Below are positions 26,158 through 63,324 of a stretch of 64,000 nucleotides of DNA, piece after piece; the stretch's first letter is position 1; each line of letters opens with the position of its first letter. This stretch comes from Microbacterium immunditiarum. Its GTDB lineage: Bacteria; Actinomycetota; Actinomycetes; Actinomycetales; Microbacteriaceae. Made by a program: the position numbers and the translations under genes. Where the stretch lies: contig NZ_JACCBV010000001.1 in assembly GCF_013409785.1 (NCBI RefSeq), positions 372,001-436,000 on the forward strand. Direction: 5' to 3'. Under the pieces are notes generated by a model. That model had not been told where the DNA came from, searched no databases, and saw only the letters and a program-made list of their open reading frames with translations.

Positions 26158-26172
26158 GCCGTCGACCCCCTC

Positions 26173-26254: not shown

Positions 26255-26263
26255 GCGGTCATC

Positions 26264-42255: not shown

Positions 42256-42374
42256 GTCAAGGACGGGGTCGACACGCTCGGCGGGCTCATGCTGGTCCCC
42301 TTCGACGACCGACGCTGAGTGCCCCCAGTGTGCCGCACGGCCCTTCGCCGCGCCCCGGCCCCGTTCGCAGCGCC

Positions 42375-42456
42375 GCCGAGTGCACTGCTTGGCGTCGAGC
42401 GCACGACCTGGCCACGCGGCGAAGCCGTGCGTTCGACGCGACGTCGTGCACTCGCG
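42375..42456. repeat. 82-bp palindromic repeat, copy B
   Basis: It has the same layout as copy A, base for base in length (11-5-15-20-15-5-11). Inner arms pair at 13 of 15 positions. At the tenth inner-arm position copy A has T paired with A and copy B has C paired with G, a compensating change that supports the hairpin. It lies between the ClC remnant and the last gene of the D-arabinan operon. Confidence 0.85.
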
Positions 42457-42472: not shown

Positions 42473-43432
42473 TCAGGAGTCGAGCGGCTCCACCGAGAAC
42501 GTGAACGCGCGCCCCTGCCGGAACGGCTCGACGAGCTCGAAGTTCTCGAACGCGATGCCGCCGGGGATGGGGTGCTCGCTCATCCAATACGTGTATCGGC
42601 CGTTGACCTGCGCCACGAGCGCCGGATCCGGGTCCTCGGCCCGCCACGTCTGGACGGCGCGGCGCCCGACGTACCGCCAGTGCTCGGCTGTTCCCGGGAC
42701 GTGCTCCGCGGTGTGCGGCGACGGCTCGTCGGGCATGGCCGAGATGACCACGGCGTGGCCCTCGCGCCGCAGCTCGTCCACGCCGAACACCGCGTGCTCG
42801 GCGAAATGGATGTCGCGGTAGTCCGGCCACAGCTCACCCGCCGACATGTCGCGCCCGGCGAGGCTCAGCGTGCGCAGACGCGCCCAGTTGCCCATCGTGG
42901 CGGTGAGCACGCACGCCTCGAGCTCCGCCGACCCGTCCCGGCGGAACGCCGCGACCGACACCTCGTGCGGCCGGTCCGCGCGGAACTCCACACGCACCCA
43001 CACGTCGGCGCCGTTCGCGAACGGCTCGACGAGTACCTCGACGATGAGCCGCTCGACGCCGTCTGCGACCTCGACGCGGCCGCGCGCGGGATCGCGAGGG
43101 TCGCGGGGCGCCGCATCCGTCGGGTCGTCCGTCGTCCACATGCGCAGACCCGGCACGTCGTCGAGCCGGCTGCGCTCGAGCTCCGAGAATCCGCGCGCGG
43201 TCTCGCCCGCGGGGATCGGCTCGACCGCGATGAAGTTCAGCAGACGGTCGCGCGGCTGATCGAGGTACGGCGTGTAGAGGCGAAGCAGCCCTCGCGGTCC
43301 GGACAGCGGATGCAGCCCGAGCTGCATCCCGCCGGGGTGACCCCACCGCGGCTCGCGCGGTCCCGAGCCGGCCGCGGGGCGGAGCCATCCGTCCTTGTCG
43401 ACCGCCTCGGTCCATTCGTTCTCAGAGGCCAT
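42473..43432 (-). CDS. Conserved hypothetical protein, fourth gene of the D-arabinan operon
   Basis: This 319-residue protein has no signal peptide and no motif I can assign. Distinct segments are GLLRLYTPYLDQPRDRLLNF, FIAVEPIPAGETARGFSELE, LTATMGNWARLRTLSLAG and YTYWMSEHPIPGGIAFENFE. The high Trp/Tyr/Phe and beta-strand content suggests a sugar-binding beta-sandwich (inference). The ATG overlaps the isomerase stop by 11 bases, so it is coupled to that operon. A mutarotase-like or accessory lyase role is conceivable but unproven. Confidence 0.7.
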   Translation of the reverse strand: MASENEWTEAVDKDGWLRPAAGSGPREPRWGHPGGMQLGLHPLSGPRGLLRLYTPYLDQPRDRLLNFIAVEPIPAGETARGFSELERSRLDDVPGLRMWTTDDPTDAAPRDPRDPARGRVEVADGVERLIVEVLVEPFANGADVWVRVEFRADRPHEVSVAAFRRDGSAELEACVLTATMGNWARLRTLSLAGRDMSAGELWPDYRDIHFAEHAVFGVDELRREGHAVVISAMPDEPSPHTAEHVPGTAEHWRYVGRRAVQTWRAEDPDPALVAQVNGRYTYWMSEHPIPGGIAFENFELVEPFRQGRAFTFSVEPLDS

Positions 43433-45059
43433 CGATCCGTCCCACGAGGTTCACTTTGATGCCCATGCGGTCGAACATCGCCGCCTTCGCGATGAGCGCC
43501 TTGTCGGCGGTCTCGGCGTCGGGCGCGTAGACGAGCTGCGCGTGATTCGCCTTGTGGCGGGCCATGAATTGGTCGCGCGAGACGTCGTGCAGCACGACGT
43601 GGGCGATCGGCCACTCGGGGTTCGTCGCGTCCTTGCGGCGCTGCGTCTCCTCCTCGGGAAGCTCGACCACCGTGCCGCGGAAGATGTCCGCCTGCAACCT
43701 GCCATCGGCGATGAACACGCGCGACAGCACGACCTCGCCCGGCTTCGAGACGCCGTTGATCGTCGCGCCGCCCGCGGGGAAGAACACGTGGCCCTGACGC
43801 CAGCCCTCTGCCTTGTCCCAGCCCCCCAGGTGCGATGCGGGCACCGAACCCGAGATCTCGTACACCCACACGAACTCGCCGTCGTATTCCTCGCCCCAAC
43901 GCACGTCGTGCAGCGTGTTGTCGGGCACGAGACCCATCGCCGTCCACACCCGGTCGGTCACGAGCGCGTCGACCGCGACGCCCTCGTCGGCCTCGTTGAA
44001 GTGCGGGAACGCCCGGCCGGCGAACAGCTCGCGCGAGCCGTCGCGCGAGAGCACGGGCGGACGCTCGGTCGAGTTGAGGATGCCCTCGGCGAGATCCGAT
44101 GCCGGCACGAGGTCCTTGAGGCCCTGCTGGTACTGGATGCCGACAGCGTCGAGCCCGAAGTCGTCCGCGATGCGCAGGGCGGCGATGTACATCTTGAGCT
44201 GCCACTGCACCTGGTCGCGCGTGAGCTCGGTGGCTGCGTCCTCGCCGTACTGGAACGTCATGCCCCGTTCGACGAGCCAGTCGTACGCGGCGTCGGCCTG
44301 GGCATCCGTCACGTTCAGCATCTCGGCGTACAGCGCCGACTGCGACAGGCGCTCCTTGTAGATCCCCGTGCGGTTGAGCAGCTCGTCGTCGAAAATCGCG
44401 TTGTACATGCCCATGCAGCCCTCGTCGAACACGCCGATGATGGCCTTGTCGGCGAGCAGCTGGTCGCCGAGCGCGCGTCCGAGCTCGACCTCGGGTGTCT
44501 CGGGCAGCGCCGGCAGCGGGCGCACGTGCGACGCGTCGTGCGTGATGCATCCGGTCTCCGTCCACTCGCGGATGCCCTGCGTGAACCACTCGTCGGTGAA
44601 GTCGACCGACCAGATCGTCGCGTACTGCTTGCCCATCTTCGTGAGTCCGGCGTTGAGGCCGAGCAGCCCGACAAGACCCGGCCACTCGCCCGCGAAGTTC
44701 GCGACCGTGAGGATCGGGCCCTCGTGCGTGCGCAGCCCGGCGAGCACGTGGTGGGAGTACTGCCACACCGCCTCGGCGACGATGAGCGGAGCATCCGCCG
44801 GGATCGTCTTGAACACCTCGAGCCCCATGCGCTGGCTCGAGATGAACCCGTGCCCTGTCTCGGGGTCGACCTCGTTCGCCCGGATCACCGACCACCCGAG
44901 CTGTTCGAGCGCGCGCGTCACACCGGCCTCGAGCTCCACCTGGGTGGGCCAGCCCGCCGTGTTCGCCGATTCGCGCAGGTCGCCCGACGCGATCAGGTAC
45001 GCCGTCCTCGGGGGCACCGTGCGGCGCTCGCGTGCAGCGGGAAGGGTGTAGGTACTCAT
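43422..45059 (-). CDS. L-fucose/D-arabinose isomerase family sugar isomerase
   Basis: This 545-residue enzyme resembles L-fucose isomerase-type proteins: TVANFAGEWPGLVGLLGLN, GVFDEGCMGMYNAIFDDELL (a Glu/Asp metal-site region), IQYQQGLKDLVPASDLAEG and RAFPHFNEADEGVAVDALVT. Fucose isomerases also convert D-arabinose to D-ribulose, a known route for D-arabinose use. Next to arabinofuranosidase families this is the best role here. AGGAG precedes the ATG at 45059; the start overlaps the GH116 stop (ATGA). Confidence 0.85.
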   Translation of the reverse strand: MSTYTLPAARERRTVPPRTAYLIASGDLRESANTAGWPTQVELEAGVTRALEQLGWSVIRANEVDPETGHGFISSQRMGLEVFKTIPADAPLIVAEAVWQYSHHVLAGLRTHEGPILTVANFAGEWPGLVGLLGLNAGLTKMGKQYATIWSVDFTDEWFTQGIREWTETGCITHDASHVRPLPALPETPEVELGRALGDQLLADKAIIGVFDEGCMGMYNAIFDDELLNRTGIYKERLSQSALYAEMLNVTDAQADAAYDWLVERGMTFQYGEDAATELTRDQVQWQLKMYIAALRIADDFGLDAVGIQYQQGLKDLVPASDLAEGILNSTERPPVLSRDGSRELFAGRAFPHFNEADEGVAVDALVTDRVWTAMGLVPDNTLHDVRWGEEYDGEFVWVYEISGSVPASHLGGWDKAEGWRQGHVFFPAGGATINGVSKPGEVVLSRVFIADGRLQADIFRGTVVELPEEETQRRKDATNPEWPIAHVVLHDVSRDQFMARHKANHAQLVYAPDAETADKALIAKAAMFDRMGIKVNLVGRIDGL

Positions 45060-47617
45060 GTGGTCTCCTGTGGTGAGTGATCGGTGACGCGGGCGGATGC
45101 GCGGAAGGTCGCGCCCTCTCCCGCGGGAAGGACGAGGGGGCCGGATGCCGCGACACCGCGCAGCACGAGACGATCGAGTGCGAGCGTGCCGCCGTCGACG
45201 CGGAGCGTGAGCTCGTCGCCGTCGATCTCCACGCGCCCCCACGCGTCGCCCGTCGTGAAGAGCGATCGGAAGGGCCGGTCACCCACGGGGTCGAACGCGA
45301 GCGAGCGGGTCGGGGCGTCCCACTGCGCGCCGCTGAACGCGAGGAGCAGCGCCCACGACGCGAGCGAGCGGGCGTAGTGGTTGCCGCACTCGATCTCGTT
45401 CCACGGGCTGCGGTACTCGCCGTCGTAGCGGTCGCGCAGCGTTCGCTCGATCGTGAGGGCGGCGTCGGTGAGTCCGGCGTAGACGAGGGATGCCGCTACC
45501 TGGTGCTCGATGCCGGTCCACACCTCGTCGGAGTAGACGAACGGGATCGCCGGGCGTCCGCCGCGCGGCCACGATGCGAGCAGGAGGCCGCCCTCGTCGT
45601 TGAGCGCGTACACGCGCTGCGTGCTCTCGTGCGCGGAGAGGTCTTCGCGGTGGTTGTGCTCCACGATGGCGGCGAGCGCGCTGCGGAGGCGCTCGCGCGG
45701 CAGCAGGTCGCCGAGGCCGTTCACCCATGCGTGGAACTGCCCGAGCAGCTGATCCGACAGCACACCCTCGCCGTACTGATACCGGTGGGCATCGACGTCG
45801 TCGATGACCTGGCGGTAGTACTCGCCGTTCCACAGCAGCTCGTCCATGCCGGCCGCGACGTGCTCCGCGCGATCGAGCCAGTCCGCCGCGCGCCCGGTCT
45901 CGCCGAGGTGCGCCGCCATGCGGGCTCCTGCGCGCAGCGCCGCGGCGAACATGCCGTTCGCGAGCGGCTCGACCCCGTGGAACTCGATGTCGTACGTGTT
46001 GTGCAGCTCGCTGTCGAGCAGCCCGTCGCCGTCGCGGTCCCACTCGCGGATCGCGTACTCGAGCGATCGAGCCGCCGCGGGCCACGCCTCGCGCAGGAAG
46101 TCGTCGTCGCCCGAGAACCGCCACTCGCGGTGCAGGCGCAAGAGCGTGCCGAGCTGCCCGTCGACGGCCGGGCCCATGAACCAGGGCTCGCCGCCGAAGA
46201 CGCGGTTGCTGCGGAACTTCTGCGCGCCGTCGTCATCCGTCTCGAGCAGCAGCTCGACGCGCCGCGCGCTGCGCTCGAGCGACGGGAACAGCCACGCGAC
46301 GGTCTGCGCGTACGACCACACGTGCGTGCAGGTGCCCTCGCACGAGCCGACGTGGTCGAATGAGCCCTCCCACGCGGCGAACACCGGTCCGTCGCCGAGC
46401 TCGGGGGTGGGGGTCTCGACGACGAACGCGGTCGTCGAGCGCACGGCCGCGATGTTCGCGCCGACGGCGTCGGCGACGACCGGATCGAGCGTGCCGCCGT
46501 AGAGCGCCTCGACGAAAGCGAGCGTCGCGGTCTCGAGCGCGGGGAGCTCGCGGTGCAGGTGCGTCGCGGCCGACCACGCGTCGGGCCACAGGGTGGCGTA
46601 GCGGTTGCGCACGATCCCCGGGTCAGGCCGCTCGTCCGCGACGATGTGCCCGCGCCACGAGCGCGGCCGGTTCGGGAAGCTCCACGCGAGCACGAACTCG
46701 AAGTCGCGGCTCTCTCCGGGCGCGAGCTCGTGCACGATGCCGAGCGAGCCCGTGCGCAGGCGCGGGAGCTTCTCGAAGAGCTCCTCCTCGGTCATGGCGC
46801 CCACGGTGGCGGAATCCGCGAACAGCCCGCGCGGGCGGTCTTCGAGCGTCAGGCGCGGCTCGGGCTCGAGCAGCCCGTCATGTGACAGGTCGTTCCAGAA
46901 GAGGCGGGCGCCGTCGGGCCAGAAGCCGGTCACCCACTGCGATTTCGCGGTGGTCGAGGCATCCGCCGTCGTCAGGCTCAGCGTGCCGTAGCCGAGATCG
47001 TCCTCGGGAAGCCGGATGCCGAAGTCGAGCCCCCGCACGCCCCCCTCGTCGCGCCACCGCACGGTCTGCTGCGCGCGCATGCCGTACGGGCCTTCGCCGC
47101 GGCCCGCGGTATGGCTCACGCTGCCGGCCACCGTCACCGCGACCGGCTGCGCACCCGGATTGGTCACGCGGTAGCGCAGCACCGCCGCGGGGATGCCGGA
47201 CGCGTCGGCGTCGAGCGGCACGAGCGGGGTGAACGCCCGCAGCGACACGTCGACCGGCAGCACATCGTCGTCGAAATCGATGTCGACCACGGGGTACTCG
47301 CCGTGCATGGTCGCGCCGCGCAGGCGCGGAAGCCCCGCCTGCCACTCGAACAGGAAGCCGGCGTCGATGTCGCGTCGGCCCGTGATGCGCGCTTCGAGCA
47401 CTCGTGTCACGGCGTCGCCGCCCTGGCGCGCGGCGTGGATCGCGAAGAACGAGTACGGGTTGATGCGGCCCTTGTCGGGCTGGTTCTCCAGCTCCCAGTC
47501 GCGCAGCTCTCCACGCGCGCCGAGCGACACGTTGCCCGTGCCGATGCCGCCGAGCGGGAAGGCCGCCCGCTGTGCGGTGTGCGGGATGCCGCGGGTGCGA
47601 CGGGTGTCGCCGGTCAC
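45056..47617 (-). CDS. GH116 family glycoside hydrolase, candidate exo-D-arabinofuranosidase
   Basis: This 853-residue protein has the GH116 (GBA2/bile-acid glucosidase-like) plan: an N-terminal beta-sandwich starting AAFPLGGIGTGNVSLGARGE and an (alpha/alpha)6 barrel with CTHVWSYAQTVAWLFPSLER. Near residue 630, HNTYDIEFHGVEPLANGMF holds the family's conserved TYD. Known GH116 enzymes are beta-glucosidases and beta-xylosidases, and an exo-beta-D-arabinofuranosidase was reported from Microbacterium arabinogalactanolyticum. No signal peptide is seen, so it acts inside the cell. GTG overlaps the kinase stop. Confidence 0.87.
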   Translation of the reverse strand: MTGDTRRTRGIPHTAQRAAFPLGGIGTGNVSLGARGELRDWELENQPDKGRINPYSFFAIHAARQGGDAVTRVLEARITGRRDIDAGFLFEWQAGLPRLRGATMHGEYPVVDIDFDDDVLPVDVSLRAFTPLVPLDADASGIPAAVLRYRVTNPGAQPVAVTVAGSVSHTAGRGEGPYGMRAQQTVRWRDEGGVRGLDFGIRLPEDDLGYGTLSLTTADASTTAKSQWVTGFWPDGARLFWNDLSHDGLLEPEPRLTLEDRPRGLFADSATVGAMTEEELFEKLPRLRTGSLGIVHELAPGESRDFEFVLAWSFPNRPRSWRGHIVADERPDPGIVRNRYATLWPDAWSAATHLHRELPALETATLAFVEALYGGTLDPVVADAVGANIAAVRSTTAFVVETPTPELGDGPVFAAWEGSFDHVGSCEGTCTHVWSYAQTVAWLFPSLERSARRVELLLETDDDGAQKFRSNRVFGGEPWFMGPAVDGQLGTLLRLHREWRFSGDDDFLREAWPAAARSLEYAIREWDRDGDGLLDSELHNTYDIEFHGVEPLANGMFAAALRAGARMAAHLGETGRAADWLDRAEHVAAGMDELLWNGEYYRQVIDDVDAHRYQYGEGVLSDQLLGQFHAWVNGLGDLLPRERLRSALAAIVEHNHREDLSAHESTQRVYALNDEGGLLLASWPRGGRPAIPFVYSDEVWTGIEHQVAASLVYAGLTDAALTIERTLRDRYDGEYRSPWNEIECGNHYARSLASWALLLAFSGAQWDAPTRSLAFDPVGDRPFRSLFTTGDAWGRVEIDGDELTLRVDGGTLALDRLVLRGVAASGPLVLPAGEGATFRASARVTDHSPQETT

Positions 47618-49140
47618 GCGGTCACCACCTCCGCCTCGCGGACGCGCTGCGCCGCGGCGAGCTCGTGCACGACGTCCTTCGTCGACGAGTACAGCCGCAG
47701 GTAGCGGTCGTAGAGCTCGTCGTAGACGGGCGTGAGCCGGGGGTCGGGCCGCACGGTGACCGCGACCGGGTTCCAGTCCGCGATGCGGGGTGCATCGCCG
47801 GGTGCGGCGACCGCGGATGCCGCGAGGAAGGCCGCGCCGTAGCTGGCGCCGATCGTGGTGCGCGGCACCTCCTGCGCGAGCCCCGTCGCATCCGACACGA
47901 TCTGCAGCCACAGCGACCCCTGCGTGCCGCCGCCGACCGCGACGATGCGGCGGATGTCGGCGCCCGCTGCACGCATCGTCTCGACGTTGTGCCGCACGCC
48001 GAGCGCGGTGGCCTCGAGCGCGGCGCGGTAGAGGTCGCCGCGCGTGTGCTCGAGCGTGAGCCCCGCCATCACGCCGCGCGCGTCGGGGTCGAGGATCGGC
48101 GTGCGCTCGCCCGCGAAGTACGGGAGCATCACGAGGCCTCGGGCGCCGGGTCCGGACTCCTCCGCCTCGGCGAGCAGCACGGGGTAGTCGGCGCCGGTCA
48201 GGTCCTTGATCCAGGACGTCAGTGCGCCCGACGTGGCGAGTCCTCCCGCGAGGTTCCGGGTCCCGGGGAACGCGCCCACCGTCGTCCACATCGACGGTGT
48301 GCGGAGGGTCTCGGTGCTGGTCGCGATGAGGAACATCGTGGTGCCGTACATGAGCATGAGGTCGCCCGGCTCGTGGGCGCCGACGCTGACGGCCTCGGTC
48401 CAGGCGTCGATCGTGCCGGCGATCACGGGTGTGCCGGCGGGGATCCCAGTGACGGATGCCGCGGCATCCGTCACTTCGCCGACGACGTCACCAGCCCACG
48501 CGAGCGCGGGAGCCTCGATGCCGGGGGCGAAGCGCTGCCACCACGGGTCGTGCCACGCTGCCGCCTCGACGTCGTACAGCGGCGACGTCTGACTCGCGGA
48601 CTGGTGGTCGAGCACGTAGGCCCCGGTGAGCCTGCGGGCGAGCCACGATGCAGGCATGAAGAGGCGGCGCGCCCGCGCGTAGGCCTCGGGCTCTTCGTCT
48701 GCGACCCACGCGATCTTGGGGCCGGCCGCCTGGCTCGTGAGGGTCGAGCCGCCGATGCGCGTGATCTCGTCGACGCCGAGCTCGTCGGTCATGCGCGCGA
48801 TCTGGTCGCCCGAGCGCGTGTCGACGCCGTAAAGGATGGCCGGCCGCACGGGCTCGTCCTCGTCGTCGGCCAGCACGACGCACGGACCCATGCCGCTGAC
48901 GCCCACCGCGACGACGTCGGGCTCGTGCCCCTCGGCTCGGGCGGACTCGAGGAGCTCGCGGCTGAGGGCGACGAACTCGTCCCACCAGATGCGGGCGTCC
49001 ATCTCGACCCAGCCCGAGCGCGGACGCTGCACGTCGTGGGCCACCGTCGCGGCGGCCACGATGCCGCCCGACGCGTCGACGAGCACGCCCTTGCTGCTGG
49101 ACGTGCCGATGTCGACACCGAGCGTGCAGCGGATGGTCAT
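47614..49140 (-). CDS. FGGY family carbohydrate kinase, probable D-ribulose kinase
   Basis: This 508-residue sugar kinase has the N-terminal phosphate motif LGVDIGTSSSKGVLVDASGG, WVEMDARIWWDEF, the sugar-domain GTIDAWTEAVSVGAHEPGDL and the C-terminal FGGY signature region RIVAVGGGTQGSLWLQIVSD. It is xylulokinase-like, and the neighbourhood suggests D-ribulose as substrate, giving D-ribulose 5-phosphate. No aldolase for D-ribulose 1-phosphate is nearby, which favours the 5-phosphate. It is the first gene of the four-gene operon, with AAGGAGG before the ATG. Confidence 0.87.
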   Translation of the reverse strand: MTIRCTLGVDIGTSSSKGVLVDASGGIVAAATVAHDVQRPRSGWVEMDARIWWDEFVALSRELLESARAEGHEPDVVAVGVSGMGPCVVLADDEDEPVRPAILYGVDTRSGDQIARMTDELGVDEITRIGGSTLTSQAAGPKIAWVADEEPEAYARARRLFMPASWLARRLTGAYVLDHQSASQTSPLYDVEAAAWHDPWWQRFAPGIEAPALAWAGDVVGEVTDAAASVTGIPAGTPVIAGTIDAWTEAVSVGAHEPGDLMLMYGTTMFLIATSTETLRTPSMWTTVGAFPGTRNLAGGLATSGALTSWIKDLTGADYPVLLAEAEESGPGARGLVMLPYFAGERTPILDPDARGVMAGLTLEHTRGDLYRAALEATALGVRHNVETMRAAGADIRRIVAVGGGTQGSLWLQIVSDATGLAQEVPRTTIGASYGAAFLAASAVAAPGDAPRIADWNPVAVTVRPDPRLTPVYDELYDRYLRLYSSTKDVVHELAAAQRVREAEVVTA

Positions 49141-49182
49141 CGATCCTCCTTGATCGCGACGAGCGGCGAGACGAATGCGTTC

Positions 49183-49223
49183 ACTCTAGACGAAATCGAT
49201 TTCATGCTCAACCGACGAAATCG
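49183..49223 (-). promoter_or_regulatory. Kinase-operon promoter with LacI-type operator in the spacer
   Basis: On the minus strand TTGAGC (49206-49211) and TAGAGT (49183-49188) are 17 nt apart. The spacer contains the perfect palindrome GAAATCGATTTC (49192-49203). A further half-site GAAATCG is at 49217-49223. A repressor here would block RNA polymerase directly. Distance to the kinase ATG is about 43 bases. Confidence 0.85.
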
Positions 49224-49250
49224 CCGTCGCGGATGAAACGGGAACTCCGC

Positions 49251-50240
49251 TCAGCCGCGAGACGGGACGCGCGCGGCCTGGACCTCGCTGCGCAGGACGA
49301 CCGTGCGCGCAGGCTGGTCGTCGCCGTTGATGCGCTCGAGCAGCATCTTCGCCGCCGTCACGCCCATGTGCCGCGCGGGCAGCCGCACGACGGTCACCAC
49401 GCTCGGCGACAGGGTCGTGAACGGCAGCGAGCCGACCACCGCGACGCCGAGCTTCGGTGGTGTCAGCCCATGCTCGGTGAGCACCTGGATCGCGCCGACG
49501 CCGAGCAGGTTGTTGCCCGCCACGACGGCGTCGGGCGGCTCGGGCAGCGCGAGCAGCTCCTCCATGACCTCGCGCCCGCCGTCGACGCGGAAGGTCGAAT
49601 AGCGCAGCAGGTCGTCGAACTCCTCGTCGGGAAAGTGCCGCGACAGCACGGCCCGCCAGCCCTGGGCCCGCTCATACGCGGTCTCGATGTGCTGCGGTCC
49701 GGTGATGCACGCGACGCGCCGGTAGCCCGCCTGCACGAGATTCTCGGTGGCGGCCTGGCCGGCCGTGCGATTGGCCATGATCACGCCGTCGATGTCGTAC
49801 CCGGTGCCGCGGTCGACCGCGACGATCGGGCGTCCGGCGGCGAGCAGGCCGTCGAGGTTCGTGTGGTCGGATGCCGCGGCCAGGATGACCCCGGCCATGT
49901 GCTCCGAGATCGCGATGTCGAGGTACGTGGCCTCTTTCGCGAGATCGGAGTCGGTGTTGCACAGCACGACCGAGTACCCCGCCTGGGATGCGACGTCTTC
50001 GACGCCGCGGGCCATCTCGGTGAAGTACGGGTTCTCGATGTCGGGGATGACGAGCGCGATGACCTCTGCCGCGCGGCGGCGGAGCGTGCGCGCCGTGCGG
50101 TTGGGTGTGAACTTAAGCTGGCGCGCGGCCTCGCGCACGGCGAGCGTCTTCTCGTCGGAGACGCCCATGCCGTTGAACACGCGCGACACGGTCGCCGGCG
50201 ACACGCCGGCGAGCTTCGCGACCTCGTAGATCGTCGCCAT
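49251..50240 (-). CDS. LacI family regulator of the D-arabinan locus
   Basis: This 329-residue repressor has the LacI headpiece MATIYEVAKLAGVSPATVSR, then VFNGMGVSDEK and the hinge LKFTPNRTARTLRRR. A periplasmic-binding-like sensor domain follows (VIALVIPDIENPYFTEMARG). Effectors in this family are usually sugars or sugar phosphates, here probably a D-arabinose derivative. ATG 50240 is preceded by GAGGGTGAC. It is divergent from the GH172 gene. The palindrome GAAATCGATTTC, repeated through the locus, is its probable operator. Confidence 0.9.
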   Translation of the reverse strand: MATIYEVAKLAGVSPATVSRVFNGMGVSDEKTLAVREAARQLKFTPNRTARTLRRRAAEVIALVIPDIENPYFTEMARGVEDVASQAGYSVVLCNTDSDLAKEATYLDIAISEHMAGVILAAASDHTNLDGLLAAGRPIVAVDRGTGYDIDGVIMANRTAGQAATENLVQAGYRRVACITGPQHIETAYERAQGWRAVLSRHFPDEEFDDLLRYSTFRVDGGREVMEELLALPEPPDAVVAGNNLLGVGAIQVLTEHGLTPPKLGVAVVGSLPFTTLSPSVVTVVRLPARHMGVTAAKMLLERINGDDQPARTVVLRSEVQAARVPSRG

Positions 50241-50270
50241 GTCACCCTCAGTTCCCCGCTGCCACCGACG

Positions 50271-50315
50271 TTGACATTGTCGGTCAGCCAACCCTACAGT
50301 GTTGAAATCGATTCC
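50271..50315 (+). promoter_or_regulatory. GH172-gene promoter with LacI-type operator at the start site
   Basis: TTGACA (50271-50276), an 18-nt spacer and TACAGT (50295-50300) form the best sigma-70-like promoter in the window. GAAATCGATTCC (50304-50315) overlaps the expected transcription start. With its flanks it reads as an 18-bp near-palindrome, GTTGAAATCGATTCCAAC. It drives the plus-strand hydrolase run. Confidence 0.85.
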
Positions 50316-50383
50316 AACAGTACCGTGAATCTCCACGCCTTCGCGCCGCGATCCGGCGCGCCGACACGAGGATGTGCCGTCCG

Positions 50384-51526: not shown

Positions 51527-51626
51527 CATGCCCGGTCCGGCGCTCGCCGCGCGGGAAACGCCTTGCGTTCGAAGAGACTCGGGTTCCGCGCCGAGACGCA
51601 CCGGAGGACACAGCGTCTCGGCGCGA

Positions 51627-52790: not shown

Positions 52791-52851
52791 ACCAGCACAG
52801 CCGAGATCGAGTGCCCGCCATCCGAGCGGGCCGCTACGGAAGGAGAGTGCG

Positions 52852-54384: not shown

Positions 54385-54391
54385 CCGCGGG

Positions 54392-56047
54392 ATGACGAAG
54401 ATCCGCATCATGGGCGGGGCGCCGGTGGCATCCGGCGTCCCGCCGCTGCGCCTCCGCGTCGCGCACGTCGACCAGGCCAACACGGTGCTCACGGCGAGCG
54501 ACGGCGACCTGTGGCCGTCCGCGTGGGCAGATGATGGCGCGCTGTATGCGGCCGCCGGCGACGGCACCGGCTTCGCCCGGCACGTCTGGAGCGACATCGT
54601 CGTCAACCGCATCGACGGTCATCCCGAGACGGGGCTGACCGGCGAGCGGCTCAGCGACGGCGATGCGGTCGCGCCGATCTGGCAGCCGGGCTCGTTCAAC
54701 CGGAAGCCGACGGGGATGGTGGCTGTCGACGGCAACGGCGACAGCCGCGACGAGCTGTACCTCGCGGTGCAGGACCTGCGCATGCCGGACGCCGTGGGTG
54801 GCTTCGACGAGGCGCCCACGGCGACGGTGGTGCGATCGGACGACTACGGCCGCACATGGACCTGGCCGCGCGACCCGATGTTCTCAGACCACGTCTTCAC
54901 GACCATCATGTTCCTCGACCTCGGCCAGTCCAACGGGGGCAGCCCGTGGGTGTACGCATACGGCATCGACGGCAACTGGCGCACGTCGTTCGCGAAGCTC
55001 GTCAACGACCCCACACGGCTCTTCCTCGCCCGCGTGCCGGCGGCGTCGGTGCAGGATCGGGCGACCTGGGAGTTCGTGAGCGCCTTCGAGGCCGACGGAA
55101 CGCCGGCGTGGTCACGCGACATCACCCGCCGCATCCCCGTCCTCGTCGACGAGCGCCGCTTCTACCCGACGCCCGCGTTCGGCAACGGCGCTCACGACTT
55201 CACCTGCATCGCGCAGGGCTCGGTCGTGTGGAACCCGGGTCTCGGCCGCTACCTCTACTCGACGTGGAGCGAGTACACGTTCGAGTTCTTCGAGGCACCC
55301 GCACCGTGGGGTCCGTGGCGACTGCTGCACAGCCACGACTTCGGCCACTTCCCGTGGCACGGACCCCGGTCGCCGCTCGCGAAGCACGGCGGCTACGCCC
55401 CGACGATGCCGTCGAAGTTCATCTCGCCCGACGGGCGGGACCTGTGGCTGCAGAGCAACTGGTTCGTGCCGGCGTCGTCGCGGGGCGGACGCGCCTACTG
55501 CTTCGGACTGCGCCGCGTGCGGTTCGATCCCGGCCAAGCCGCCGTCACTGCGGCATCCGGCAACCTCGCCCGCTGCCTCGACGCGTCTCCGCTCGTGTCC
55601 CGCGTGCGCGAGGGACACGAGTCGGTGCTCGCCGACGGCCGGCGCGACATCGCGGAGGACTCGGCGTTCGGTCCGGGCTCGGGTGAGGACGTCTGGGGCT
55701 ACGAGTGGCCATCGCCGCGTCGGTTCGATCGCATCGTGTACGCGCCGGGGCCGCAGGACTCCCTCGGCGGATGGTTCGCGGACGGTCCACGCGTCGAGGT
55801 GCGCGTCGACGGGCGGTGGATGCCCGTGCTTCGCGTGACGGTGAAACCGCCGTACCGCAACGACTTCACAGCACTCGAAGAGGACGAGTATGTCTTCACC
55901 TTCGCCCCGGTGACCGCCGACGGCGTCCGACTCACGGGCACCGCCGGCGGACCGCTGCGCTACACCTCGATCTCCGAGCTGGAGGTGTGGGCGCCCGCGT
56001 CTAGCCCTGCTGGTCGGCCAGGCCCAGATCGCCGATCACCTTCGTGA
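54392..56047 (+). CDS. Propeller protein with C-terminal discoidin-like domain, DUF4185-like, apparently cytoplasmic
   Basis: The first 395 of 551 residues parallel the lipoprotein at 51627 (ASDGDLWPSAWADDGALYAA, NRKPTGMVAVDGNGD, EYTFEFFEAPAPWGPWRL). The remaining 150 residues look like a beta-sandwich of discoidin type (EDSAFGPGSGEDVWGYEWPS, then FADGPRVEVRVDGRWMPVLR). There is no signal peptide. ATG 54392 is 7 bases after the GH183 stop and lacks its own ribosome site, so coupling is likely. Its last 47 bases overlap the convergent binding-protein gene. The reaction is unknown. Confidence 0.72.
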   Translation: MTKIRIMGGAPVASGVPPLRLRVAHVDQANTVLTASDGDLWPSAWADDGALYAAAGDGTGFARHVWSDIVVNRIDGHPETGLTGERLSDGDAVAPIWQPGSFNRKPTGMVAVDGNGDSRDELYLAVQDLRMPDAVGGFDEAPTATVVRSDDYGRTWTWPRDPMFSDHVFTTIMFLDLGQSNGGSPWVYAYGIDGNWRTSFAKLVNDPTRLFLARVPAASVQDRATWEFVSAFEADGTPAWSRDITRRIPVLVDERRFYPTPAFGNGAHDFTCIAQGSVVWNPGLGRYLYSTWSEYTFEFFEAPAPWGPWRLLHSHDFGHFPWHGPRSPLAKHGGYAPTMPSKFISPDGRDLWLQSNWFVPASSRGGRAYCFGLRRVRFDPGQAAVTAASGNLARCLDASPLVSRVREGHESVLADGRRDIAEDSAFGPGSGEDVWGYEWPSPRRFDRIVYAPGPQDSLGGWFADGPRVEVRVDGRWMPVLRVTVKPPYRNDFTALEEDEYVFTFAPVTADGVRLTGTAGGPLRYTSISELEVWAPASSPAGRPGPDRRSPS

Positions 56048-57329
56048 TCGTCGCGCCGGCCTCCGCCTGCGCCTGCGCAATGTCTCCGCCGCGCATCGCC
56101 TTCTCCAGAGCCGTGCCCATCGCAAGGCTCACCTGCCAGTCATACGTCGGCTCGAGGATCGCGGTCTTGGTCGACTCGAGCAGCACGTCGTAGAACGGGT
56201 TCACGGTGCGGTTCGGGTCTGCGGCGAGCTCCTCGGCGAGCGAATTCCGCGGCGAGAGTTTCGTGAACTTCGTGCCGGTGAAGTACGCCTTGGGGACCGA
56301 CGTGCCCTCCGCGAGCATCCAGCTGATGGCGGATGCCGCAGCCTCGACGTTCTTCGACTTCGCGTCGACGCCGATCGTCCAGCCGCCGAGCGTGGAGGTC
56401 GTGCGGCTCGGGTCGCCGTCGACGGTGGGCATGGGGGCGACCGCGAGCTTGTCGATCATCTGCGGATAGTCGGCGAGGAGGAGGCTGATGGCCCACGAGC
56501 CCGACGCCATGCTGGCGAGCTTCCCCTGTCCGAGCGGGGATGCGTCGCCGTATCCGGACAGCGCCTGCTTCGCGAGGATCCCCTTGCCGTACAGGTCCTG
56601 ATAGAACTGGAACAGCGGTTCGTACTTCGCGTCGGTCGCCTCCTCCTCGGACCAGTCCTCCGAGATGGGCAGGTGACCTGCCGTGCCGAACTGGGCGCCC
56701 CACGTCGTCCACGACAGCTCCACCGCGTTCTGCGCGATCTGGAACGGGACGGTCTTGTCGTCGGTCGCCTTGAGCTTCAGGCCGGCGTCGATGAGCTCGT
56801 CCCACGTCTTCGGCGGCGCCGCCGGGTCGAGCCCTGCCGCCTCGTAGAGGTCGGTGCGGTAGAACAGGAGCGCGCTGGGCTCGTAGTAGATCGGGTAGGC
56901 GTACTGCTCGCCGTCGACGGTCACCGCATCGAGGAAGCGCTCGTCGAGATCCTTCCAGCCTTCTTCGGAGATGTGATCCGTGATCGGCGCCAACTGCGCG
57001 TTGCGGGCGTTCATCGGCACAGCCGAATAGTTCATCGTGTACATGTCCGGAGCCTTGCCGGCGGCCTGCGCGGCCTTGAGCTTCTGCTCCCACGCGTCGC
57101 CGGGCACGACGGTGAGCACGACCTTCACGTCGTTCTGGGCGGCGTTGAAATCCTGCACCGCCTTCTTGAACCACGCGTTGTCCTCATTGGAGAACTGGTT
57201 CTGCCAGAACTGCACGGTGGTGACCCCGTCGGCGTCGGCGTCACCGCCCCCTGACCCGCAGGCGGTGGTCATGGCGAGCGTTCCGATGGCGACCGTCGCG
57301 ATCGCCAGGCGTACTGCTGAGTGCTTCAT
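56001..57329 (-). CDS. ABC sugar-binding lipoprotein (first of two paralogues)
   Basis: This 442-residue extracytoplasmic solute-binding protein of the MalE/UgpB type has lipobox TTACG after a signal (VRLAIATVAIGTLAMTTAC), then VTTVQFWQNQFSNEDNAWFK, WEQKLKAAQAAGKAPDMYTM and DEQ-like hinge regions. It is clearly paralogous to the 59294-60643 product (KLKAAQAAGKAPDMY against KMKSAQAAGKAPDIY). It is the last gene of the importer run, 52 bases after the second permease, with GGAGGCGC before the ATG. Confidence 0.9.
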   Translation of the reverse strand: MKHSAVRLAIATVAIGTLAMTTACGSGGGDADADGVTTVQFWQNQFSNEDNAWFKKAVQDFNAAQNDVKVVLTVVPGDAWEQKLKAAQAAGKAPDMYTMNYSAVPMNARNAQLAPITDHISEEGWKDLDERFLDAVTVDGEQYAYPIYYEPSALLFYRTDLYEAAGLDPAAPPKTWDELIDAGLKLKATDDKTVPFQIAQNAVELSWTTWGAQFGTAGHLPISEDWSEEEATDAKYEPLFQFYQDLYGKGILAKQALSGYGDASPLGQGKLASMASGSWAISLLLADYPQMIDKLAVAPMPTVDGDPSRTTSTLGGWTIGVDAKSKNVEAAASAISWMLAEGTSVPKAYFTGTKFTKLSPRNSLAEELAADPNRTVNPFYDVLLESTKTAILEPTYDWQVSLAMGTALEKAMRGGDIAQAQAEAGATITKVIGDLGLADQQG

Positions 57330-57381
57330 TGCGCCTCCTCTTGGTGAACAGGGTGGGAGGTCAGTCGCCCCGGCGACGCCC

Positions 57382-58266
57382 TCACTTGAGACCGGCCATC
57401 TTGATGTTGCCGATGATCTGCCGCTGGAAGATCAGAAAGAGGATGATCACCGGAGCCGCGGCGAGGGCGGATCCCGCCATGAGCAGGCCCAGCTCGGTGC
57501 TGCGCTCCGACCGGAAGGTGGCCAGGTACTGCTGCACGACGAACTGCTCGGGCGTGGTGATGGTCATGATCGGCCACACGTACGAGTTCCAGTACGCGAG
57601 GAAGGCCGTGATGCCCATGACGACGAACGGCGGCTTCGACAGCGGCAGGAACAGGTGCGTGAAGATGCGGAAGCGCCCGCATCCGTCGAGCATCGCGGCC
57701 TCTTCGAGGCTCGATGGGATGCTCAGGTAGAACTGCCGGATGAAGAAGATCATCCCGGCGCTCGCGGCGCCCGGGATGACGAGCACCGCGAGGGTGTCGA
57801 GCATCTGCAGGTTCGTCACGACGATGAAGCTCGTGAGGAGGATCGTCATGCCGGGGATGAACATCGTCGTGATGACGAGCACCCACAGCGTGCGCTTGAA
57901 CCGGAAGTCCAGGCGGGCGAACGCGTAGGCCGCGAGCGAGTTCACGGTGAGCGCGAGGAGCGTGAAGAGCGCGGCGCCGAGGAACGTCCACAGCATGGTC
58001 CGCGTGAACGTCGGGTCGGCGAGGATCTGGACGTAGTTCTCCCAGTGCCACACCTCGGGGAAGAACTGGAACGGCGTCTGGATGACCTCGGTCTTGGACT
58101 TGAAGCCCGCGATCACCATCCACGCGAGCGGGAAGAGCGCCGCCAGAACGAACACGGCTCCGGCGATGGTCTTGCCGATCGCGTAGAGCCACCAGAGGCC
58201 GTCGCGGTGCTTGCGCCGCGTGGGAGCGGGTGCGGAGGTGTGCGCGACGTCGAGAGCGACCGCCAT
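57382..58266 (-). CDS. ABC sugar importer permease, MalG-like
   Basis: This 294-residue inner-membrane protein has six helices. The EAA loop is PSSLEEAAMLDGCGRFRIFT, with the G that contacts the ATPase, followed by HLFLPLSKPPFVVMGI. It pairs with the MalF-like permease encoded 1 base upstream (TGA-C-ATG). No ATPase gene is present. In actinobacteria such importers often share a distant MsiK-type ATPase. Confidence 0.92.
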   Translation of the reverse strand: MAVALDVAHTSAPAPTRRKHRDGLWWLYAIGKTIAGAVFVLAALFPLAWMVIAGFKSKTEVIQTPFQFFPEVWHWENYVQILADPTFTRTMLWTFLGAALFTLLALTVNSLAAYAFARLDFRFKRTLWVLVITTMFIPGMTILLTSFIVVTNLQMLDTLAVLVIPGAASAGMIFFIRQFYLSIPSSLEEAAMLDGCGRFRIFTHLFLPLSKPPFVVMGITAFLAYWNSYVWPIMTITTPEQFVVQQYLATFRSERSTELGLLMAGSALAAAPVIILFLIFQRQIIGNIKMAGLK

Positions 58267-58267
58267 G

Positions 58268-59224
58268 TCAGTCCACCAGCCTCTCGGAGTTGACGAATTT
58301 GAACACGAGCGCCGACACCGTGCCGAGCACGACGAACAGCAGCAGCGCGGCGGCGATCGAGTACCCGACGTTTATGTCGTTGCGGAAGTGGTTGAAGATG
58401 AACAGGTTCGGCAGGGTCGTCGAGTCCAGCGGTCCGCCGCCGGTCATGACCAGGGGAAGCTCGAACTGCTGGATCGCCGCGACGAAGCCGGTGATGAGCA
58501 GGTACAGCCCGACGTTCTTCAGCTGCGGCAGCGTGATGAACGCCGTCTTCTGCCACCAGTTCGCGCCCTCCATCGAGGCCGCCTCGTAGTACTCGGTCGG
58601 GATGTCGATCATCGCGGCGACCATGATGAGCGATGTCAGGCCGAGCCCGAGCCACACCGCCGGCACGGCGATGGCGAGCAGCGCCCACGCCGGGTCTCCG
58701 ATCCACGCGACCGGGTCGATGCCGAAGACGGCGAGCGCCGCGTTGAGCAGACCGCCCGAGTAGTTGTAGATGAGGGCGAAGATGATCGAGGTGATCACCG
58801 ACGAGATGATCGTCGGGATGTAGATGCTCACCTTGAGCGTGCTCGCCGCCCACCGGGACACGCTCACGACGAGGCTCGCGAAGAAGAACGCGAGCAGCAG
58901 CATGACCGGGACGGTCATGAGCACGAACACGAACCCGCGCCCGATCGCCGCCCAGAAGAGCGGGTCGTTGAGCACGTTCGTGAAGTTGCGCCAGCCGACG
59001 AACTCGGGGTCCTTGTAGAAGCTCCAGTCGTGGAACGAGAGGTAGATCGCGTAGATCGCCGGCCAGATGACGAAGATCCCGAGGAGCACGACCGCGGGAA
59101 GGATCAGGAAGTAGGCGATCCGCCCGTCCCGATAGCGGTACTTGGCGTGCTGACGTCGGGCGTGACGGCCGCCGGGCTGAATCATCGGCTTCGTCTCGCT
59201 CATCATCGTCTGCGTCGCGGTCAT
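58268..59224 (-). CDS. ABC sugar importer permease, MalF-like
   Basis: This 318-residue permease has a basic N-terminus and six helices (YFLILPAVVLLGIFVIWPAI first). The EAA loop is PTEYYEAASMEGANWWQKTA, followed by FITLPQLKNVGLYLLI. It forms the channel with the MalG-like partner. A hairpin (59253-59282) separates it from the upstream binding-protein gene, which fits stronger expression of the binding protein. Confidence 0.92.
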   Translation of the reverse strand: MTATQTMMSETKPMIQPGGRHARRQHAKYRYRDGRIAYFLILPAVVLLGIFVIWPAIYAIYLSFHDWSFYKDPEFVGWRNFTNVLNDPLFWAAIGRGFVFVLMTVPVMLLLAFFFASLVVSVSRWAASTLKVSIYIPTIISSVITSIIFALIYNYSGGLLNAALAVFGIDPVAWIGDPAWALLAIAVPAVWLGLGLTSLIMVAAMIDIPTEYYEAASMEGANWWQKTAFITLPQLKNVGLYLLITGFVAAIQQFELPLVMTGGGPLDSTTLPNLFIFNHFRNDINVGYSIAAALLLFVVLGTVSALVFKFVNSERLVD

Positions 59225-59252
59225 GTGCTCACCTCGTTGTGATGCGTGACGG

Positions 59253-59282
59253 ATCCGGGGGCCGGATCACCGACCCCCGGAT
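59253..59282 (-). other. Intercistronic hairpin between binding protein and permease genes
   Basis: ATCCGGGGG (59253-59261) pairs with CCCCCGGAT (59274-59282) around a 12-nt loop, in the 69-base gap between the first two genes of the importer. Hairpins here often protect the binding-protein message or attenuate transcription into the permeases. Confidence 0.55.
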
Positions 59283-59293
59283 GTCATGGGCTG

Positions 59294-60643
59294 TCAGGAC
59301 TTGGGCGCCTTGCTCGGCAGATCGTCACGCTGGATCACCGTGTTGATCGCGTCTTCCGCCGTCTTGATGGCGTCGTCCACCGACGCGGCCCCCTTCATGA
59401 CCGACTCCATCGCGGTGCCCACCGCGAGCGAGATGTCCCACGGGTAGGTGGGCTCGGGGATCGCGGTCGGCGCGATGTCGTTGACGATGATGCCGGACCA
59501 CGGGGCATCCGCCGCTGCGGCGTCAGCCGCCACCGCGTCCTGCACCGACTCGCGCACCGGCACCTTGGTGAACTGCGTGTTCACGAAGAACGGCACGAGG
59601 TTCTCCGGGTCGCCCGCGATCGCCCACTCGAGGAACTTGCCCGCCGCCTCGGCGTTCTTGCTCTTCGCGTCGACGACCCACTTGAAGTTCCCGAGCGTCG
59701 TGGCCGTGTCGCCCTCCGCGTCGTCCGCGTTCGGGAACGCGCCGATGCCCGTCTTGCCGAGCAGGTCGGGGTAGTCCGAGCCGATCTCCGACATCATCCA
59801 CGAGCCCGAGACCTTGAAGGCGGCCTTCTGCTCGCCGAAGTCCTTGCCCTCCACGTATGCGGCGAGAGCCTGCTTGGGCATGTAGTCGTTATCCCACAGC
59901 TCCTTGTAGCTCTCCATGAGCGACTTGTAGCCGGAGTCGTTGATGTCGGGCGCCGTCCAGTCGGAGGTGAGCGCGGTGTGACCCGAGAAGTTGTACTGCT
60001 GGCCGACCGTCGACCACGCGAAGGTGACCGCGTCGCTCGCGGGCGAGATGCAGTACTGGCCGTCCGAGAGCGTCGGCTGGATCTCGGCGCACATGTCGAT
60101 GAGCTCGCCCCACGTCGCGGGTCCGACCTCGGGGTCGAGGCCCGCGGCCGAGAGCATGTCCTTGTTCCAGAAGAGGACCGTCTGGGGCTCGAGCAGGAGC
60201 GGGTAGGCGTAATACGTGTCGCCGACCGCCGAGACGGGCAGCGCGGCGTCGATGATCTCGCCGAGCGCGTCGTCCGAGACGATGCCGTTCAGCTCGTGCA
60301 GCTGTCCCGCGTTCACCGCGTCCTGGATCGAGCCGGGGTGCGTGTAGATGTCGGGGGCCTTGCCGGCGGCCTGCGCGGACTTCATCTTCTGGTCCCACGC
60401 GTCGGCGGGCACCTCGGTGTCGACGACCTTGATCTCGTCCTGCGACTCGTTGAACTTCTTGACGATGTCGGCGTACCACTCGTTCTCGACGGGCGTGAAC
60501 GTGCGGTGCCAGAACTGGATCGTCGTGACGCCGTCGGCGCTGTCGCCCGTGTCGCCTCCGCCCGCGCCGCATCCGGCGAGCAGAGCACCGACGGCTGCGG
60601 TCGCCACGACAGTGACTGCGAGCCTGCTGTACCTCTTGTGCAT
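59294..60643 (-). CDS. ABC sugar-binding lipoprotein (second of two paralogues)
   Basis: This 449-residue solute-binding lipoprotein has the signal RLAVTVVATAAVGALLAGCG with lipobox LAGC, then a Gly-rich tether, VTTIQFWHRTFTPVENEWYA and AWDQKMKSAQAAGKAPDIYT. It is the first gene of the importer run. A promoter with the LacI-type operator lies about 125 bases upstream. Two different binding proteins for one permease pair suggest recognition of more than one arabinan fragment (inference). Confidence 0.92.
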   Translation of the reverse strand: MHKRYSRLAVTVVATAAVGALLAGCGAGGGDTGDSADGVTTIQFWHRTFTPVENEWYADIVKKFNESQDEIKVVDTEVPADAWDQKMKSAQAAGKAPDIYTHPGSIQDAVNAGQLHELNGIVSDDALGEIIDAALPVSAVGDTYYAYPLLLEPQTVLFWNKDMLSAAGLDPEVGPATWGELIDMCAEIQPTLSDGQYCISPASDAVTFAWSTVGQQYNFSGHTALTSDWTAPDINDSGYKSLMESYKELWDNDYMPKQALAAYVEGKDFGEQKAAFKVSGSWMMSEIGSDYPDLLGKTGIGAFPNADDAEGDTATTLGNFKWVVDAKSKNAEAAGKFLEWAIAGDPENLVPFFVNTQFTKVPVRESVQDAVAADAAAADAPWSGIIVNDIAPTAIPEPTYPWDISLAVGTAMESVMKGAASVDDAIKTAEDAINTVIQRDDLPSKAPKS

Positions 60644-60768
60644 TCTTCGTCCCTCCTCAGGAACACGACTCTTCGGTGAGCCGGAGCTGTGGCCGGTCAG
60701 GGGAGCCCGGTCTGATCCGATCGCGCGACCACGCCCTGCGCGGATCGACGTTGATCTCGTCCTGGGTC

Positions 60769-60797
60769 AGAGTAGGCGAAATCGATTTCAAGCGCAA
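60769..60797 (-). promoter_or_regulatory. Importer-operon promoter with LacI-type operator in the spacer
   Basis: On the minus strand TTGCGC (60792-60797) and TACTCT (60769-60774) are exactly 17 nt apart. The perfect palindrome GAAATCGATTTC (60778-60789) sits in the spacer, the same geometry as at the kinase operon. Confidence 0.85.
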
Positions 60798-60918
60798 CGG
60801 TCATGCCGGTCGAGCCTAACCACGCATGACGGATGCCGGGGCCGCGTGGCCGCAGGAAATCGCGCCGCACGGCGGTAGATCTGCCCACGCGGGCGACGAG
60901 TCGGCGTGGCATCCGGTT

Positions 60919-60930
60919 TGTATCGATTTC
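60919..60930. promoter_or_regulatory. Partial LacI-type operator
   Basis: TGTATCGATTTC matches GAAATCGATTTC at 9 of 12 positions, with an intact right half. It lies about 140 bp from the importer operator and could act as an auxiliary site for looping, or it may be chance. Confidence 0.4.
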
Positions 60931-60954
60931 ACAACGAGGCGACGTCGGCCAGCG

Positions 60955-62115
60955 TCAGTCAGCCGCCTTCTCGAGGTCGACCGAGAACCAGAAGACGTTG
61001 TACGGACCCCACAGCGACATCGCGAAGTAGATGCGCCTGCCGCCCTCGTCGACGTAACGCGGATTCATGAACGGGGCGTAGAGACCGGGGTAGTCGGACG
61101 CCCGCACCAGCTCGATGGGGTCGCCCCACGGCCCCCACGGGGTGATCCCCTCGCGGATGTAGGCGTTCCCGGCATCCGAGGACGTCATGATCCAGCGGTC
61201 GAGATACTCCGACCACATGACCGACAGCTCGCCGATCGTGCCCTCGATGACCGTCTCGGCGGCCTCCATGTCGGAGACCCACCGGGGGTTGCCGTCGTCG
61301 TCGGTTCCCGCGAAGTAGGTGTACGCCGCCTGGTCTTCGACGGCTTGTTCGGTCGCCGGCACCCGCATGAGCTGCACGCCGCCGAACCTGCCCGCCGGGA
61401 TCGCCCAGAAGTACAGGTACTCCGTGCCCCCGTCCTCGACCCGCACGGGCGCCACCTGGATGAAGTTCGAGTCGCCCGGCCACCGCGGGCTCTCGAGCGC
61501 GGTCCACGTCTCGCCCCGGTCGGTCGACTTCGCGAGTCCTGCGTGATTCGCGTCCCACGTGCCCGGCTCGCCCCAATACGACACGGACATGTACGAGATG
61601 TAGAGCGTCTCGCCGATCGCGAACCCGTGCGTCGGGATCTTGGTGACCTCGCCGTCGCCGTCGTTGATGTCGTGCTCGCCCTCGACGAGCGCCTGCGCCC
61701 AGCCGAGGTCATCCGCCGGCGCCCATCCGTCGAACGCGATGCCGTCGGACGGGTCGTCGTCGGTCGTCCACGCCGACACGTTCGAGCGCCAGATCCCGCC
61801 CTGGCCGCCCGTCGACTCGGGGGCGCGCTCGCCGAACGTGTCGCCGAAGAAGAAGTACGTGCGGTCGCCGAGGTTCGCCATCGAGCCGAGGTCGGTGCCG
61901 GCGACCGCCGCGGCCTCGGTGTCGTTGATCGCATCCGGACCCGTGAGCTGCGCGATCTCGGTCAGGTTCGAGACCCCGTCCAGCACGAACGGCTTGTCCG
62001 CGCCGCTCTCGACGGACGGCAGCGAGCCCGCGCACGCCGTCATGCCGAGGGCGAGAGCGACGGATGCGGCGACCGCCGCGGCGGCTCGGACGCGGGCACG
62101 GGCTCGTTCGGCCAT
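60955..62115 (-). CDS. GH183 (DUF4185) endo-D-arabinanase, lipoprotein form
   Basis: The 386-residue product has a signal ending ASVALALGMTACAGS (lipobox TAC) and then the DUF4185 domain with no extra module. TGPDAINDTEAAAVAGTDLG, FFFGDTFGERAP, GGIWRSNVSAWTTDDDPSDG and SYWGEPGTWDANHAGLAKST align with the secreted enzyme at 52852. GH183 members cleave D-arabinan internally. Being anchored to the cell surface, it may trim fragments near the importer. ATG 62115 has GAGGAGG; upstream sits a perfect GAAATCGATTTC. Confidence 0.87.
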   Translation of the reverse strand: MAERARARVRAAAAVAASVALALGMTACAGSLPSVESGADKPFVLDGVSNLTEIAQLTGPDAINDTEAAAVAGTDLGSMANLGDRTYFFFGDTFGERAPESTGGQGGIWRSNVSAWTTDDDPSDGIAFDGWAPADDLGWAQALVEGEHDINDGDGEVTKIPTHGFAIGETLYISYMSVSYWGEPGTWDANHAGLAKSTDRGETWTALESPRWPGDSNFIQVAPVRVEDGGTEYLYFWAIPAGRFGGVQLMRVPATEQAVEDQAAYTYFAGTDDDGNPRWVSDMEAAETVIEGTIGELSVMWSEYLDRWIMTSSDAGNAYIREGITPWGPWGDPIELVRASDYPGLYAPFMNPRYVDEGGRRIYFAMSLWGPYNVFWFSVDLEKAAD

Positions 62116-62166
62116 GGATCCTCCTCGATCGACGCGTGCCACGATACGTCGGATCGGATGCCAAGC

Positions 62167-62178
62167 GAAATCGATTTC
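62167..62178 (-). promoter_or_regulatory. LacI-type operator before the GH183 lipoprotein gene
   Basis: A perfect GAAATCGATTTC lies 52 bases before the ATG at 62115. Possible promoter hexamers around it are weak (TATCGT about 25 bases nearer the gene), so the exact promoter is uncertain. Confidence 0.75.
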
Positions 62179-62205
62179 AATCGAGCGAGCGGACTGAGGG
62201 GGAAC

Positions 62206-62287
62206 GCCGAGTGCACGGCTTCGCGTCGAGTGAACGACCCGGATGCGTCGCCACGCCGCGCTTTCGACGCGAAGCCGTGCACTCGCG
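62206..62287. repeat. 82-bp palindromic repeat, copy C
   Basis: It is the same length as copies A and B. Here the 5/5 internal loop is closed (GGCTT opposite AAGCC), so the outer stem becomes 24 nt long with 22 pairs (62206-62229 with 62264-62287), while the apical part differs. It lies 12 bases past the stop of the beta-lactamase-like gene, between that gene and the GH183 control region. Confidence 0.85.
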
Positions 62288-62299
62288 GGAGGCGCCGGG

Positions 62300-63241: not shown

Positions 63242-63324
63242 GCGTCCAAGTATGGTCAAGGCGTTGTCCACAGCCTTTGGTCGATCGGCCGAATCGGATG
63301 GGCCGCGTATGTACAATCTCGCGA

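Follow-up and report, generated by a model that had tools for sequence, protein, structure and literature searches.

Does the gene cluster at positions 42473..62142 of a 64,000-nucleotide stretch of the Microbacterium immunditiarum genome (contig NZ_JACCBV010000001.1, positions 372,001 to 436,000; hereafter the window) make up a whole pathway for the use of D-arabinan, and how does it relate to the systems already described for this polymer? We read it as a locus by which a Microbacterium uses D-arabinan under the control of LacI, and give this reading a probability of roughly 0.93. Gene content, orthology, active-site residues and operator distribution were computed; we infer the enzyme activities and specificities in this strain, LacI as the operator-binding protein, the inducer, and the roles of four proteins named here E1, E3, SBP1 and x319. 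The locus looks complete and is another member of an already published system, that of Microbacterium arabinogalactanolyticum, which was published in 2023 and is partly characterised, four of its proteins having been assayed (PMC10509167). To this known system the present analysis adds a predicted regulon, traced through its operator, and two gene families with open roles.

Gene content and closest relatives

The locus comprises 14 genes in a single-contig genome of 3,906,867 bases. From left to right these are x319, the isomerase, GH116, the FGGY kinase and LacI on the minus strand; GH172, E1, E2 and E3 on the plus strand; and SBP1, two permeases, SBP2 and E4 again on the minus strand. GH183, GH172, GH116, an ATP-binding cassette (ABC) importer, an isomerase and a kinase are held in a single cluster, which is the content of a locus of the M. 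arabinogalactanolyticum type. An initial annotation of this DNA had listed an intact GH172 (50372..51526, plus strand), GH116 (45056..47617), FGGY pentulose kinase (47614..49140), LacI-family repressor (49251..50240) and L-fucose/D-arabinose isomerase-type protein of 545 aa (43422..45059), the last four on the minus strand, and Pfam and NCBIfam profiles, with which all families were assigned, place each of them there. Its count of two GH183/DUF4185 proteins was too low, for there are four GH183-type genes (PF13810, DUF4185, has four matches genome-wide, all within the locus), and it left the leftmost gene, x319 (42473..43432, minus strand), unaccounted for.

GH172 matches the GH172/DUF2961 profile at 289 bits and GH116 its families at 171 and 147 bits. 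The best solved relative of each is a structure from PMC10509167: 8ic8 for GH172, at 805 bits versus 116 for the next best PDB sequence, and 8ic6 for GH116, at 1365 bits versus 95 (here the query was the protein minus its first 18 codons). By alignment GH172 keeps Asn253 and GH116 keeps E431, D557, R483 and H446. GH172 is accordingly named here as an orthologue of ExoMA1, of the exo-alpha-D-arabinofuranosidase type, and GH116 as an orthologue of ExoMA2, of the exo-beta-D-arabinofuranosidase type.

The comparison with the M. arabinogalactanolyticum enzymes that the initial annotation had proposed was made against the contig of strain JCM 9171, on which MIAR numbers were assigned from gene order, size and the text of PMC10509167. 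Identities were 88.9% for GH172, 87.4 and 80.6% for the permeases, 77.3% for LacI, 76.5% for the kinase, 75.6% for SBP2 (MIAR_33310), 74.5% for GH116, 71.3% for E1 (MIAR_33220), 70.8% for E2 (EndoMA1), 66.8% for E4 (MIAR_33320) and 59.9% for x319, while the isomerase was 87% identical over the part compared; the active-site residues checked were the same. The gene taken as MIAR_33220 encodes a mature part of 346 aa with an isoelectric point (pI) of 4.27, and PMC10509167 gives 300-400 aa and pI 4.3-4.6. The two loci share the isomerase, GH116, kinase, LacI, GH172, MIAR_33220-type, EndoMA1-type, permease, solute-binding and MIAR_33320-type genes in the same order (67-89% identical) and the same operator. 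They differ in that EndoMA2 (MIAR_33270) is missing from our locus, that E3 and SBP1 are extra in it, and that the neighbour of x319 is E4 in M. arabinogalactanolyticum but the isomerase, at the opposite end, here. As reported in PMC10509167, D-arabinose and a mycobacterial wall extract induce the four DUF4185 genes, GH116, the solute-binding protein and, more mildly, GH172 of that species (quantitative reverse-transcription PCR).

Further afield, the putative D-arabinan clusters of other Actinobacteria, including other Microbacterium species, also bring GH183, GH172 and GH116 candidates together, as described in the discussion of PMC10509167 and the legend to its Fig. 9. Dysgonomonas gadei, a member of the Bacteroidota, shares GH172 and GH183 (PMC10115798), and PMC10509167 mentions a putative GH116 as well. 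A close relative of E2 was encoded by 15 loci of the GTDB collection, 14 from Microbacterium and one from a metagenome-assembled genome of the Bifidobacteriaceae. The GH172 of the locus type was present in 47 of 198 Microbacterium genomes, seven of which carry a distant GH116 (34-38% identical) instead of the close one. In Microbacterium sp. ASV49 (locus L007, 4089-6539) a distant GH116 (31-36% identical) separates LacI from GH172 and is flanked on either side by operator sites. The locus seems to swap its beta-enzyme.

Signals, judged by eye at the N-termini, were consistent with the order of steps put forward by the initial annotation (cutting outside, import, finishing inside), which is the scheme of the discussion and the Fig. 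10 legend of PMC10509167. E2 has a Sec-type signal peptide and E1, E4, SBP1 and SBP2 have lipoprotein-type N-termini; GH172 and GH116 lack signals, as had been noted, and so do E3 and x319. E1 orthologues were lipoprotein-like and the E3 orthologues that were read also lacked a signal, so that the locations fit the published scheme with the addition of one GH183-fold protein, E3, inside the cell. As to the ABC importer, two permeases (57382..58266 and 58268..59224) and two solute-binding lipoproteins, SBP1 (56001..57329) and SBP2 (59294..60643), are encoded on the minus strand, but no ABC ATPase gene was seen within the locus interval. Genome-wide, the OB_MalK profile matches once, at 1.73 Mb, and with no ATPase in the locus and a single one of the MalK type elsewhere a shared ATPase is likely. 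Three of the related loci (L006, L008 and L017) carry an importer of another subtype (permeases 49-63% and solute-binding protein 46% identical to those of the window) behind the same operator.

A predicted LacI operator and its distribution

The pattern GAAATCGATTYC occurs at exactly four places in the 3,906,867 bases of the genome, one before each transcription unit. Three of these read GAAATCGATTTC: the site at 49192..49203, 52 bases before the kinase, that at 60778..60789, ahead of SBP2 and the transporter unit, and that at 62167..62178, ahead of E4. The fourth, GAAATCGATTCC at 50304..50315, lies between lacI and GH172. All locus genes in the window fall in presumed units behind a site. 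The genome contains no copy of a reversed control pattern, and the number of sites observed in the window was reached in none of 100 shuffles of it. No Rfam family matched anywhere in the window at gathering cut-offs.

Conservation of the operator was followed across the 15 GTDB loci with a close E2 relative. All 12 loci that include the kinase start have the exact site 45-66 bases ahead of the kinase match, and the exact site also precedes the transporter unit in nine out of nine Microbacterium loci that reach it. Wherever E4 has a match in a Microbacterium locus, which is the case in seven, a site precedes it, except that in L007 the site falls within the first matched residues. The gap between lacI and GH172 contains a site that departs from GAAATCGATTTC at one position in 13/13 loci spanning this stretch, as it does in the window, and in L007, where GH116 is interposed, a one-mismatch site stands on both flanks. 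No operator site was seen in the Bifidobacteriaceae locus (L018). The position and palindromic nature of the sites suggest that LacI is their binder. The main text of PMC10509167 contains no mention of LacI, operator, regulator, mutarotase or transcriptional, and in a literature largely without subscription papers we found no report joining D-arabinose, LacI, operator and Microbacterium.

GH183-fold proteins, x319 and the flanks

The four GH183-type proteins are of two kinds. E2 (52852..54384, plus strand), a secreted protein with a C-terminal domain resembling a carbohydrate-binding module (CBM), and the lipoprotein E4 (60955..62142, minus strand) match PF13810 strongly (399 and 272 bits), and both keep D33, D51, R198 and E243 in EndoMA1 numbering. 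In EndoMA1 itself Asp33 is described as the nucleophile, Asp51 as the acid/base and Glu243 as essential (PMC10509167), and the best solved relatives of E2 are 8hhv and 8ic1, structures from the same study. E1 (51528..52790, plus strand) reaches 40.3 bits, barely above the cut-off of 39.5, and its paralogue E3 (54392..56047, plus strand), which has a CBM32-like C-terminal domain, falls below it at 33.3 bits; E3 is placed among the GH183-type genes because it is 53% identical to E1 and because its predicted fold is that of EndoMA1. Both E1 and E3 carry the equivalents of Asp33 and Asp51, and in both of them, as in MIAR_33220, a glutamine replaces Glu243. Since the third acidic residue is replaced, we file E1 and E3 as GH183-fold proteins and not as endo-D-arabinanases.

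It should be noted that the glutamine is a property of the clade: it occupies the Glu243 column in 76 of 76 aligned sequences of the MIAR_33220 type (a column of a sequence alignment, not of superposed structures), and both catalytic aspartates and the arginine are invariant in the same 76. The clade to which E1 and E3 belong was found in 18 of 198 Microbacterium genomes, always at most 4.5 kb from the GH172 of the locus; PMC10509167 describes this type as absent from other Microbacterium loci and leaves the role of MIAR_33220 unexplained. That E1 and E3 are D-arabinan-binding proteins which have retained the GH183 fold, and not hydrolases, is plausible if short of probable. It would agree with the universal glutamine, given that E243Q nearly abolishes the activity of EndoMA1, and with the statement in the same source that MIAR_33220, the E1 orthologue, was never obtained in soluble form for assay, but a mere binder would have no need of the invariant aspartates and arginine. 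We also consider, tentatively and with some doubt, that E1 and E3 form a GH183 subfamily which uses the two aspartates together with glutamine in place of the third acid, cutting a D-arabinan linkage or branch left by EndoMA1 and EndoMA2, E1 doing so at the surface and E3 within the cell. If x319 were in addition a mutarotase devoted to D-arabinofuranose, all three proteins would supply unassigned steps of D-arabinan catabolism under one LacI operator.

At the thresholds applied, neither Pfam nor NCBIfam has a family for the 319-aa product of x319, and a fold search points to a galactose-mutarotase-like supersandwich, a predicted fold that would suit a mutarotase or a binding domain alike. Within Microbacterium x319 is tightly linked to the D-arabinan locus. 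Of 30 genomes with x319, two depart from this linkage, one with the gene on another contig of a fragmented assembly (G038) and one with a weak partial match (G081), and four further genomes are fragmentary or split (G127, G166, G029 and G091). In the family as a whole it was found in two of 249 genomes, namely the source genome and one of another genus (G421), where the surrounding 19.5 kb hold GH172, LacI, permeases, a solute-binding protein and a GH183-type gene, with one operator-like site before the solute-binding protein gene. A wider search gave 1952 relatives among 7996 candidates scored, and with so many relatives elsewhere x319 need not be tied to D-arabinan outside Microbacterium.

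A palindromic repeat of about 80 bases lies at both edges of the locus (42374-42456 and 62205-62290) and again at 26172-26255 in the window. The genome has no fewer than 18 distinct copies, with identities of 73-100% (40 of 59 candidates scored), and two copies are predicted to fold into strong hairpins; no copy was found in the compared loci from other genomes. It is possibly a REP-like (repetitive extragenic palindromic) element. Just outside the left edge, a 177-aa open reading frame at 41722-42255 matches only positions 186-339 of the 346-position ClC chloride channel profile and looks like a truncated chloride channel gene, and just right of the locus, at 62300-63346, is a serine hydrolase resembling class A beta-lactamases (180 bits to PF13354).

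The proposed pathway and the source of the D-arabinan

In the pathway that we propose, secreted E2 and the lipoprotein E4 would act outside the cell, cleaving the D-arabinan in arabinogalactan and lipoarabinomannan of the mycobacterial type, and E1 would take part there as another surface protein. The two binding proteins and two permeases, driven by the MalK-type ATPase encoded elsewhere, would import the oligosaccharides, from which GH116 would remove beta-linked and GH172 alpha-linked D-arabinofuranose, perhaps with help from E3, which lacks a signal. The x319 protein may accelerate the interconversion of anomers or ring forms of the freed sugar, which the isomerase would convert to D-ribulose and the kinase to D-ribulose 5-phosphate. 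LacI would sit on GAAATCGATTYC before all four units until released by an inducer derived from D-arabinose.

Some observations weigh against this reading. The window lacks an orthologue of EndoMA2, whose best relatives there are about 30% identical. The isomerase matches the L-fucose isomerase C-terminal domain weakly (PF02952, 42.6 bits), its first N-terminal domain is below the cut-off, and a PDB sequence search (query with 61 extra upstream codons) returned no solved relative; because of this its substrate is deduced from context. The FGGY kinase is below the NCBIfam cut-off of every named kinase, and an extra one-mismatch operator site at 47273, within GH116, is taken as chance. That the locus acts on another glycan (L-arabinan, fructan or plant arabinogalactan) and has been misannotated is very improbable. 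The GH172 family does include alphaFFase1, an alpha-D-fructofuranosidase which is the next-tier match at 116 bits, and many GH116 proteins are beta-glucosidases, but our GH172 is close to an assayed alpha-D-arabinofuranosidase (88.9% identity) and keeps Asn253, the block to fructose, and GH116 keeps Arg483 and His446, the residues that differ from beta-glucosidases (PMC10509167). The initial annotation had itself named another specificity as a way in which it could fail; both enzymes score far higher against the M. arabinogalactanolyticum structures than against enzymes of other specificity in the PDB, and with the conserved residues this led us to set aside other glycans as the main reading.

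The adjective "mycobacterial" in the initial annotation suits the presumed food and not the host, which is a Microbacterium of a species other than M. arabinogalactanolyticum. A mycobacterial host was set aside because Microbacterium supplies 14 of the 15 loci that encode a close E2 relative. No match to the Emb arabinosyltransferase family (PF04602) was found in the genome, while among 14 control genomes Corynebacterium glutamicum gave one; lacking an Emb-type enzyme, the host probably meets D-arabinan as a foreign polymer. A wall-modification role has been proposed for the GH183 proteins conserved in mycobacteria (PMC10115798), but remodelling or recycling of the host's own wall arabinan is scarcely credible here, given the missing PF04602, an importer, isomerase, kinase and LacI that point to catabolism, and a GH172 type confined to 47 of 198 genomes of the genus; the first of these was the ground for setting it aside as the main reading. 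An origin of the D-arabinan outside the mycobacteria, for instance from other Mycobacteriales or from the D-arabinan-bearing pili of Pseudomonas aeruginosa, is unlikely on balance and would alter our reading only as to where the polymer comes from. Some GH183 enzymes act on pilin oligosaccharides of P. aeruginosa PA7 (PMC10115798), and Corynebacteriales in general bear wall D-arabinan (PMC10509167), but a GH116 for beta caps implies a branched substrate and is a better match for lipoarabinomannan and arabinogalactan than for pilin glycans, which are short and linear, a choice that the sequence itself does not decide.

D-arabinan is the signature polymer of mycobacterial walls, and the enzymes that cut it are tools for the analysis of lipoarabinomannan and arabinogalactan. 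With the operator the regulon can be tested directly, and the tight linkage to the locus of the glutamine-bearing GH183 clade and of x319 names two testable families.

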